Positions 6,449 to 9,908 of a stretch of 64,000 nucleotides of DNA are shown here, piece after piece. The notes under the pieces are model-generated. The model saw nothing but the letters and a program-made list of their open reading frames with translations, had not been told where the DNA came from and made no database searches. Both the position numbers and the translations under genes were made by a program. Within the stretch, counting starts at the first letter, position 1, and each line of letters begins with the position of its first letter. Source of the stretch: Syntrophus aciditrophicus SB (lineage in GTDB: Bacteria > Desulfobacterota > Syntrophia > Syntrophales > Syntrophaceae); the NCBI RefSeq assembly GCF_000013405.1, contig NC_007759.1, forward strand, positions 2,047,001 through 2,111,000. Direction: 5' to 3'.

Positions 6449-7105
6449 TCAGCCGGACCAGCCATACTCTCCGATAAGATCTACAAAGCGGCAGCCTCCC
6501 AGATTTTCTTTCTTTAACTCATTGATGTCCTCAGACAGTCTCGTAACTTTCACGAGATCCTGAATATGCCTTCCCCCTACGGGCAGGACCAGTCGGCCCC
6601 CGATCTTCAATTGTTCAATCAGTGGCATGGGGATATCAGGTGCACCCGCTGTAACCAGAATCGCATCAAAAGGAGATTCCTCTTTCCAGCCATAGGTGCC
6701 GTCCCCGATTCGTATCGCCACATTATAATAACCCAGCTGATCGAGTATGCGACGGGCGTTGTTGGCCAGTGACGCAATCCTTTCGATGGAAAATACCTGA
6801 TCCGCCAGTTCGGCCAGCAGGGCGGTCTGATATCCTGAACCCGTACCAATCTCCAATACTTTTTCCCTGCCCTTGAGATCCAGGGCATCCGTCATCAGCG
6901 CTACAATGTAAGGCTGCGAAATCGTCTGCATATCGCCGATGGGCAGAGGGTTATCGTTATATGCCTGATCGGCAAGGGCCTCTTCTACGAAGAGATGACG
7001 GGGAATTCTGGACATCGCCTCCAGAATGCGGGGATTTAAAACTCCTCTTGCCCGGATCTGGGTATCCACCATTCGCAATCGCTGTTTTTGAAATCGGTCC
7101 ATCAT
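6449..7105 (-). CDS. pcm: Protein-L-isoaspartate O-methyltransferase
   Basis: Repairs spontaneously formed L-isoaspartyl residues by S-adenosylmethionine-dependent methylation in the cytoplasm. The 218-residue length fits the family. [18 protein letters not shown] (about residue 78) is the SAM-binding motif I, and the PCMT signature residues [17 protein letters not shown] precede it (near residues 50-66). It overlaps the upstream small gene by four bases (ATGA) and is followed by the NlpD-like gene, so the three are probably one transcript. Confidence 0.95.
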
Positions 7106-7500
7106 AGTTCGTGCAGGTATCCCTTCCGTTCAGGAATTTTATAAAATTCTTCCACCCAGTGATGCCGTCGCATCCCGAGAGCTTCACGGGTGATGATCAG
7201 GTAATGATAACGAAGCTTTGCATCCTCTCGTAAATCATTGTAGCGGGCAATTTTCCCGTTGACTTGCTCCACGACGATCCGCTTCGTCAGTTCGTCAGCC
7301 ATGTCGCCTTCGGCATTCATGGCCTCTCCGGACATATTTCCATGAAGGCATAACAGAAGAGCCTCAATATCTTCCTTCAGATTGTGCATTTGCCGCAGGA
7401 TTGTGGAAACCGATTCGCCCGCCCTGCTCAGCACCTCCGCCTTCTCTCTGAGGAGTTCCTCCTGAAGGACATTTTCAGGCGTTTTTTCCTTTAAAACCAT
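7102..7500 (-). CDS. Conserved-looking small helical protein upstream of pcm
   Basis: I do not recognise this 132-residue protein. It is highly charged and almost entirely helical by composition, with a leucine-rich segment around residues 35-55 and no signal peptide or membrane segment. Its stop overlaps the pcm start by four bases (ATGA), so it is translated from the same message. GGAGTG precedes the start by about nine bases. Upstream (7501-7714) is AT-rich, with a TATAAT-like box near 7580 that could serve this leftward operon, but no convincing -35 box. Confidence 0.65.
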
Positions 7501-7714
7501 GCTATTTCACTCCGGTGAAGAAAAAATCCGTCCGGTAAAATTCGGAGGAATTTGTAACATATTAAAATTGAAGCACAATTATATAATATAAGTACCCTTG
7601 AATTACTACCATTGAACCTCTTAATTTTCAACTGAAAAGGCAGGCGCCTTCCTTCATCATTTTTACTTTACATTGAATTCCTCTTTAGTTAGGTAACAAG
7701 ACGAAAGGAAGGAG

Positions 7715-9313
7715 ATGCAGATGAATAAGGAAGCAATCGGAAATACCATGTCCCAGGCTGTCAGAAATGCTTATCGGCGGAATTGCGAAGACGAAACCAT
7801 GGAACCTCTTGTTCTGGTGGATACGGAGAAACGGCCAGTAGGCCGTATCCGGAAAAACGATGCCGTCATCTTCTACAATATCCGGGGAGAACGCGAAATC
7901 GAGCTGACACGCAGCCTCACCGAAAAGGGCTTTCAATCCTTTCACCCGGTGACCGATTTGTCCCTGTCCTTTGCCACGATGATCGAATACCGGCAGGGAT
8001 TAAATGTTCAGGTAGCCCATCCGCCGGAAGGCGAGGTGCAGGATACTCTCAGCGCTGTTCTCGCGTGGCACGGCATGAAGCAGGCCAAGATCACCGAAGC
8101 GGAAAAAGCGGTCCATGTGACCTATTTTCTCAATGGAAAGAAAGAAAGCCCGCTTCCGAAAGAAGAACGCATCATCGTCCCGACACGCAAGGATGTTCGC
8201 CTCTTTGATGAAGCCCCGGAGATGTCCATCGAAAAGATATCCCGGGAAATTATCGAGAAAATTCACGATCCCTCCTGCCGCTTCATTTTTGCGAATTTTC
8301 CCAATGTGGATGTCGTCGGGCATATCGAAAATGAACAGGCCATTCTCAGGGCGGTGGAAGCAGTCGACCGGCACGCTGGCCTGGTCCTTGATGAGGCCCG
8401 GCGGCAGGGTTTGACTGTGATGGTTACCGCCGACCATGGCACTGTGGAAAAATGGCTTTATCCTGACGGTGTCATCGACACGGGTCATACTGACAGTCCC
8501 GTCCCTTTTATTCTCATTCATGACTCCCCGGCTATGAAACTCCGCCGGGACGGCGCACTGACGGACATCGCCCCGACGGTTCTTCAACTCTTTCATCTCC
8601 CGGTCCCTTCTGTCATGACCGGACGATCGCTGATCACCCATCCCGCTCCGGAACAAATCCGGGAAGCGCAACGCCTGCTTCTCCTGATCCTCGATGGTTG
8701 GGGTGAAAGCTCTCCCAGTGAGGGCAATCTGATCTCCCGGGCCGCTACACCGACCATGGATTTTCTGAAAAAATCCTTTCCCTGGACGACTCTGAAAGCT
8801 TCCGGTGAAGCTGTCGGACTGCCCCCCGGCACCGTCGGCAATTCTGAAGCCGGCCATCTTCATATCGGCGCCGGCAGGCAGATTTACGCGGATCGGGTCC
8901 GCATCAACCGGGCCATTGAGGACGGAGCTTTTTTTGAAAACGAGGCATTCCTCAACGTCATGCGCGCAGCAAAGCAGAACGGAAAGGCCCTTCATCTCAT
9001 GGGCATCGTTTCTTTTTTCAGTTCCCACGGCTCCATCCATCATCTCTTCGCACTGATGGAACTGGCAAAGCGGGAAAATGTTCCTGAAGTCTACATTCAT
9101 GCCATGCTCGGCAGGCGGGGTGAAATGCCGGAAAGTGGCGCTCTGTATGTTGAAAAGATAGAAAGCAAGGCAGCGGAAATTCAAAAAGGCAGGGTGGTTT
9201 CGGTCATAGGCCGATACTGGTCCATGGACCGGGAAGAAAACTGGGACCGCATCAAAAAAACTTATGATATGCTGGTTTTTGGGAGGGGAACACCGGTATC
9301 CTGTCAACTTTGA
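7715..9313 (+). CDS. Circularly permuted cofactor-independent phosphoglycerate mutase
   Basis: A 532-residue protein carrying all of a BPG-independent phosphoglycerate mutase but in swapped order. Residues ~13-310 match the family's C-terminal half: RPVGRIRKNDAVIFYN, Arg57/Arg60, Lys131 (AEKAVHVTYF), Asp199/His203 (NVDVVGH), Asp240/His241 (TADHG), His258 (TGHTDSPVP) and DIAPTVLQLF. Residues ~318-532 match the N-terminal half: LLLILDGWG (Asp327), GEAVGLPPGTVGNSEAGH (Ser377 nucleophile), GRYWSMDRE and YDMLVFGRG. The family's FLDGRDTPP substrate loop is MLGRRGEMP (465-472), losing two aspartates. Metal and nucleophile residues remain, so phosphatase-type chemistry is likely; true mutase activity is uncertain. 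AAGGAAGGAG overlaps the first start; ATG at 7721 has better spacing. Confidence 0.85.
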   Translation: MQMNKEAIGNTMSQAVRNAYRRNCEDETMEPLVLVDTEKRPVGRIRKNDAVIFYNIRGEREIELTRSLTEKGFQSFHPVTDLSLSFATMIEYRQGLNVQVAHPPEGEVQDTLSAVLAWHGMKQAKITEAEKAVHVTYFLNGKKESPLPKEERIIVPTRKDVRLFDEAPEMSIEKISREIIEKIHDPSCRFIFANFPNVDVVGHIENEQAILRAVEAVDRHAGLVLDEARRQGLTVMVTADHGTVEKWLYPDGVIDTGHTDSPVPFILIHDSPAMKLRRDGALTDIAPTVLQLFHLPVPSVMTGRSLITHPAPEQIREAQRLLLLILDGWGESSPSEGNLISRAATPTMDFLKKSFPWTTLKASGEAVGLPPGTVGNSEAGHLHIGAGRQIYADRVRINRAIEDGAFFENEAFLNVMRAAKQNGKALHLMGIVSFFSSHGSIHHLFALMELAKRENVPEVYIHAMLGRRGEMPESGALYVEKIESKAAEIQKGRVVSVIGRYWSMDREENWDRIKKTYDMLVFGRGTPVSCQL

Positions 9314-9362: not shown

Positions 9363-9908
9363 ATGGAGGCTCGGATTGGGAACAGCGTTCTGGCCCTGAT
9401 TCAGGGGGATATAACCCAGGAAGATACCGACGCCATCGTCAATGCCGCCAATACGGGTCTGCGTGGAGGCGGCGGAGTGGACGGCGCCATTCACCGGGCC
9501 GGAGGGCCGTCCATCATGGCCGAATGCCGCCGGATCGGAGGCTGTCCCACAGGTCAGGCGGTGATCACCACAGGCGGCAAGATGAAGGCCCGTTACGTAA
9601 TTCACACCGTCGGTCCGGTTTATCGGGACGGTTCCCACGGGGAGGCGGAGCTTCTGGCCAGCGCCTACCGGGAAAGCCTGAAAATGGCTTCGGCCCGACA
9701 TCTGAAGAGCCTGTCCTTCCCCGCCATCAGTGCCGGGGTTTACGGATATCCCCTGGAGGAGGCCGCCCGGATCGCCCTGCAGACGGTCATCGATTATCTG
9801 AAAAAAAACAGGGATATAGAACTGGTCCGGTTTGTCCTATTCAACCAGAGCACCTACGATGCCTTTTCCAATGCTCTTGGAAAACTTTTACCCGGGGAAT
9901 CGAAGTAA
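9363..9908 (+). CDS. Macrodomain protein (ADP-ribose/O-acetyl-ADP-ribose hydrolase type)
   Basis: A 181-residue single macrodomain. The ligand-binding segments of the MacroD/YmdB class are present: LIQGDITQEDTDAIVNAAN (about residues 10-28), LRGGGGVDGAIHRAGG (about 31-46) and SAGVYGYP (about 125-132). This class removes acetyl from O-acetyl-ADP-ribose and can remove mono-ADP-ribose from proteins. I chose ATG 9363 because GGGAGGAAGA lies directly upstream; the open frame continues back into the mutase gene without another good ribosome site. It follows the permuted mutase by 49 bases on the same strand. Confidence 0.9.
   Translation: MEARIGNSVLALIQGDITQEDTDAIVNAANTGLRGGGGVDGAIHRAGGPSIMAECRRIGGCPTGQAVITTGGKMKARYVIHTVGPVYRDGSHGEAELLASAYRESLKMASARHLKSLSFPAISAGVYGYPLEEAARIALQTVIDYLKKNRDIELVRFVLFNQSTYDAFSNALGKLLPGESK

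Follow-up and report, generated by a model that had tools for sequence, protein, structure and literature searches.

The open reading frame at 7715–9313 of the window (the whole 64,000-nucleotide stretch of Syntrophus aciditrophicus SB DNA that was analysed, from a genome that is a single contig of 3,179,300 bases) raises the question whether a phosphoglycerate mutase of the iPGM/GpmI family can carry its two halves in reverse order and, if so, what such a protein does. An earlier note, made from the letters alone, had read here one uninterrupted frame with the family's C-terminal half first and its N-terminal half second, cut within the transferase domain, and had offered either a working permuted mutase or a phosphatase with a new substrate. 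The frame is indeed open throughout:

7705–7714, forward strand: ribosome-binding-like sequence AAGGAAGGAG, 6 nt upstream of the ATG at 7721
7715–9313, forward strand: uninterrupted frame of 532 aa encoding the permuted iPGM paralogue

As the AAGGAAGGAG stretch, read directly from the sequence, adjoins the ATG at 7715 with zero gap, the in-frame ATG at 7721 is likely the true start. An antisense open frame of 435 aa (8000–9307, reverse strand) overlaps the gene, and antisense frames are also seen in homologues; it is probably a shadow of codon usage.

The 532-aa protein contains the Pfam domains Metalloenzyme and iPGM_N and reaches a whole-protein score of 473.5 bits against the NCBIfam model TIGR01307 (cut-off 330.65) over two stretches in swapped order. 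Residues 8–307 correspond to model positions 209–504, and the remaining stretch, as matched when the genome was scanned, corresponds to model positions 2–211. Comparison by phmmer with the Bacillus stearothermophilus (Bst) iPGM chain 1ejj likewise gave swapped stretches:

7757–8638, forward strand: first segment (aa 15–308), the iPGM C-terminal part, Bst 219–510, i-E 1.4e-55
8639–8674, forward strand: linker of 12 residues (aa 309–320) joining the old C and N termini
8675–9292, forward strand: second segment (aa 321–526), the iPGM N-terminal part, Bst 6–211, i-E 4.6e-56

The first segment comprises the second half of the transferase domain followed by most of the phosphatase domain, and the second comprises the beginning of the phosphatase domain, Ser nucleophile included, and then the transferase domain's first half. 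The new termini fall between Bst residues 211 and 219, within the transferase domain, as had been proposed. Both the phosphatase and the transferase part of TIGR01307 are present and significant, and the two halves find the same family and the same PDB chains, not two different proteins; only the collinear N-to-C order is lacking, here as in 57 distinct genes. The protein is a genuine circular permutation of iPGM/GpmI whose break lies in the transferase domain. The linker differs in length and sequence from relative to relative, as would a passive connector. At loci L029 and L100 (G051), about 47 extra residues lie between the old termini.

Structure prediction, which the earlier note had suggested comparing with an iPGM, gave a concordant picture. 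An AF2 model built from the 57 permuted sequences reached a pLDDT of 89.9 and a pTM of 0.86, and all 22 Foldseek matches with E ≤0.001 were iPGMs covering about half of it. By VIA-align, model residues 10–309 superposed on residues 214–505 of the Staphylococcus aureus chain 4nwj (Z 21.9, 2.0 Å over 290 residues); sequential alignment of the whole model takes in the first segment only, as a permutant should. Folding of the second segment by itself gave a pLDDT of 72, as expected for a half-domain, and the resulting model aligned with 4nwj 2–228 (Z 11.2, rmsd 3.7 Å over 206 residues), above the level of unrelated chains. In the predicted models the two segments therefore match the same iPGM chain in swapped order.

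Permuted genes of this kind were widely found. Of 60 genomes compared in the genus and order (the source genome included), 28 carried the gene as a single uninterrupted match and four more carried it split by an insertion or by contig ends, and in the class it was present in 47 of the 84 genomes that are at least 95% complete, in none of them with internal stops. When 84,980 species genomes were scanned, the permuted order turned up in many MAGs of Syntrophaceae, Smithella and Smithellaceae and on one WOR-3 MAG contig, the closest named matches being Syntrophus MAGs (80–83%); full-length matches from Clostridia, Marinomonas, Phycisphaera and Halorhabdus had the canonical order. Within the phylum (395 genomes), the permuted order also occurred in two families that share only the phylum, f40 (58–61%) and f22 (53–55%), and the other matches listed outside the order were half-length and of the canonical kind. 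In comparisons with relatives, dN/dS was 0.06–0.12; the gene is under strong purifying selection, which rules out a decaying pseudogene in the source genome.

In trees of the N half, the C half and the whole rotated alignment, the permuted proteins formed one clade each time, weakly supported in the N-half tree (0.34) and with support of 0.86–0.94 in the C-half and whole trees. This suggests that the permutation arose once. Within the clade f22 branches first, followed by the WOR-3 contig, f40 and the window's order; the canonical sister lineage is unstable from tree to tree. The WOR-3 gene (L063) lies on a 5.8 kb contig binned as that candidate division and branches near the base of the clade, and reflects either transfer or mis-binning. 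The notion that the order is an assembly error, or an accidental fusion of halves from two genes, both named in the earlier note as possible refutations, is barely conceivable, and nothing was found in its favour: the 57 distinct permuted genes come from independent assemblies, including single-contig and 5-contig genomes, and each half yields the same monophyletic clade.

To place the catalytic residues, 57 permuted and 38 canonical proteins were compared in a rotated alignment. All 14 catalytic, metal and basic substrate residues considered are retained, each in 57 of 57 permuted proteins: the Ser nucleophile and the ligands of both metals (D12, S62, D403, H407, D444, H445 and H462 in Bst numbering), and the basic and His residues of the substrate site (H123, R153, R185, R191, R261, R264 and K336). 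The first group is encoded at the following positions, all conserved in 57/57:

8309–8323, forward strand: metal ligands Asp199 and His203 (Bst Asp403, His407)
8432–8488, forward strand: metal ligands Asp240, His241 and His258 (Bst Asp444, His445, His462)
8693–8695, forward strand: codon of metal ligand Asp327 (Bst Asp12), in DGWG
8843–8845, forward strand: codon of nucleophile Ser377 (Bst Ser62), in GNSEAGH

Together with K131 (Bst K336) and R57/R60 (Bst R261/R264), every active-site residue named in the earlier note corresponds to its Bst counterpart. In S. aureus iPGM with 2-PG, H123, residues 153–154, R185, R191, R257 and R260 are among the phosphoglycerate-binding residues used for superposition (PMC5382265). 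By this alignment, the phosphoryl-transfer machinery and the anion-binding residues appear intact across the permuted clade.

The acidic side of the substrate pocket is different. In the 38 canonical enzymes D119, D151 and D154 never or hardly ever vary, whereas all 57 permuted proteins have F, G and G there; at the two positions of the DGRD loop, Asp151 and Asp154, the comparison is Asp/Asp in 38/38 versus Gly/Gly in 57/57. Three stretches carry changes:

7883–7897, forward strand: RGERE (aa 57–61), canonical R-x-D-R-A; Arg261 and Arg264 kept, D263E and A265E fixed in the clade
9011–9034, forward strand: altered loop SFFSSHGS (aa 433–440), canonical SDGGVHSH; His123 kept, with D119F, G120F, G121S, V122S and S124G
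9098–9127, forward strand: altered substrate loop HAMLGRRGEM (aa 462–471), canonical HxFLDGRDTP; D151G, G152R, D154G, and residue 155 to Glu

In the last of these, FLDGRD has become MLGRRG, with D151 replaced by G466, G152 by R467, D154 by G469 and residue 155 (T/V) by E470, while R153 is kept as R468. The loss of two aspartates in the change from FLDGRDTPP to MLGRRGEMP had been correctly seen; the retained Arg between them, the invariant Glu next to them, the second altered loop (SDGGVHS to SFFSSHG) and the change from R-x-D-R-A to R-G-E-R-E had been missed. R467, E470, E59 and E61 are new invariant residues of the clade. Fixed in 57/57 are D119F, V122S, S124G, D151G, G152R, D154G, D263E, A265E, M404V and G409E; residue 155 is Glu, 187 Trp and 337 Ala, and in all more than 30 fixed positions are specific to the permuted clade, many of them surrounding the active site. 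As judged from the alignment, the acidic substrate-loop residues are replaced alike throughout the clade, and E470 with the Glu pair of RGERE would leave room for partial compensation of the lost Asp.

Whether the permuted gene could be the housekeeping mutase depends on what else its carriers encode. The earlier note had proposed looking for a second, normal gpmI or gpmA; in the source genome neither another gpmI nor a histidine-phosphatase-type gpmA was found, and three archaeal-type apgM genes (L031, L032, L033) were present instead. One of them is an NF003160 phosphoglycerate mutase (553 bits, above cut-off), one lies above the cut-off for proposed homoserine kinase and one is divergent. 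The number of apgM genes agrees with PMC2964296, the text of which contains no word beginning with 'permut'. Another phosphoglycerate mutase (NF003160-type apgM, gpmA by TIGR01258, or canonical gpmI) was present in 34 of 40 carrier genomes; the six in which none was detected are drafts of 85–96% completeness, about 1.7 such cases being expected from incompleteness alone (our own sum over the listed completeness values). In 11 of 24 further carriers, a canonical gpmI scored above cut-off. As a housekeeping gene should often be the sole phosphoglycerate mutase, an accessory function would fit best for the permuted enzyme.

The neighbourhood of the gene was compared across the 57 distinct loci:

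6449–7105, reverse strand: divergent neighbour, by its sequence alone a pcm-like gene (protein-L-isoaspartate methyltransferase); 47 distinct loci
7102–7500, reverse strand: divergent neighbour beside pcm, 132 aa, product with no Pfam or NCBIfam match; conserved at 46 distinct loci
9363–9908, forward strand: macrodomain gene (Pfam Macro; NCBIfam O-acetyl-ADP-ribose deacetylase), next downstream gene at 45 of the 57 loci

In the window's order, the permuted gene lies between the two divergent genes and the same-strand macrodomain gene, which at several loci begins within a few nucleotides of the permuted gene's stop. In the more distant families f40 and f22 the neighbours are others, namely a TRAP-type solute-binding protein, dehydroquinase or Lon protease, and no single conserved metabolic neighbour was found across the loci. 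The macrodomain gene is also present in most genomes of the order without the permuted gene, and with the distant families having other neighbours, a functional link to it was rejected as a clue to the substrate. In relatives without the permuted gene the flanking genes are often still together, and short remnants persist at the conserved spot in G055, G048 and G041, at loci L144, L145 and L159, covering aa 471–529, aa 36–69, and aa 7–50 plus 498–519. As flanks and remnants persist, this comparison indicates that the gene was present at the locus in an ancestor and was then lost several times. Many relatives in which it is absent or fragmentary have an NF003160-type apgM.

Among known proteins, the closest kin are GpmI/iPGM enzymes (TIGR01307; B. 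stearothermophilus 1ejj/1o98, S. aureus 4nwj), with which the permuted protein shares both halves by sequence and fold, the Ser nucleophile, both metal sites, His123 and all substrate-site Arg/Lys residues; it differs from them in the swapped halves, the loss of D119, D151 and D154, the SFFSSHG and MLGRRGE loops and R-G-E-R-E. The apgM proteins (TIGR00306, NF003160) belong to the same superfamily with the same phosphatase-domain chemistry, and the source genome encodes them in genes of their own; the permuted protein scores only 34.4 bits over about 96 residues against TIGR00306 (cut-off 320). Phosphopentomutase (PRK12383) shares the metalloenzyme superfamily core, yet the score is 29.3 bits against a cut-off of 254. 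PhpG (CMP-5'-phosphonoformate--3-phosphoglycerate phosphonoformyl transferase, NF038358), of the apgM type, carries a name that credits a member of the superfamily with a reaction different from that of phosphoglycerate mutase; the apgM proteins of the source genome match NF038358 below cut-off, whereas the permuted protein has no match to it at E 0.001.

Taken together, we favour, with a probability of roughly 60%, that the gene encodes a working phosphoryl-transfer enzyme, permuted once, whose re-tooled pocket takes a small acid other than, though related to, phosphoglycerate and which does not serve as the cell's housekeeping mutase. Its activity, changed substrate and route of origin are what we infer. 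A search of the literature for proteomic or genetic data on the permuted gene returned nothing usable, and no activity or expression data were found. The simplest origin would be a tandem gpmI duplication from which the outer halves were then lost, joining the old C terminus to the old N terminus and leaving the new termini between two transferase-domain helices. The changes of D119/D151/D154 to F/G/G and the new invariant Glu and Arg would have been acquired before the radiation of the clade. In the enzyme, two metal ions held by D327, D199, H203, D240, H241 and H258 would activate Ser377, which would take the phosphoryl group from a small phosphorylated acid bound by R468, R500, R506, R57, R60, K131 and H438; the phosphate on the different but related acid would then be transferred or hydrolysed. 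A different acid appears most likely because the acidic residues of the substrate loops are replaced and new Glu and Arg residues have become invariant.

Considerably less probable, though a serious competitor, is a working phosphoglycerate mutase in which the permutation was neutral and which backs up or replaces the other mutases. E470 and E61 may stand in for the lost D154 and D151, leaving phosphoglycerate as the substrate. This would agree with the retention of all nucleophile, metal and basic substrate residues, the last of which also counts against a new substrate, with the TIGR01307 score above cut-off and with the six carrier drafts in which no other mutase was detected. It is at odds with the complete replacement of D151/D154, with the clade-specific fixed positions near the active site, with the presence of another mutase of any of the three types in 34 of 40 carriers and with repeated loss of the gene. 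Of the two possibilities raised by the earlier note, the evidence thus leans to the new substrate, without settling the matter. We regard as improbable a phosphatase or sensor, in which dephosphorylation through Ser377 was kept and back-transfer was lost together with the Asp residues that position the acceptor, or which acts as a catalytically silent regulator. The losses do lie in the acceptor-side transferase loops, with the phosphatase-site ligands intact; however, the acceptor-side basic residues and the new Glu and Arg are invariant, implying a retained ligand rather than decay, and purifying selection is strong.

Circular permutation within a catalytic domain is uncommon in nature, and no description of a permuted member of the well-studied iPGM family was found in text searches of the open literature, in agreement with the earlier note. 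It is an attractive but tentative proposition, with slightly less than even odds, that this is the first natural permutant of the iPGM family, that its new pocket transfers phosphoryl groups on a substrate so far unknown in the superfamily, and that permutation may have left the transferase domain free to alter its specificity. As its score exceeds the NCBIfam equivalog cut-off, automatic annotation based on this cut-off would call the protein an ordinary phosphoglycerate mutase, hiding both the swap and the altered pocket. The permuted order is common across much of one bacterial order and present beyond it, and the clade can be used to test whether specificity changed along with the permutation of the backbone. 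It is also a candidate source of a new enzyme activity in syntrophic bacteria, organisms whose central carbon metabolism is deduced from annotations of this kind.
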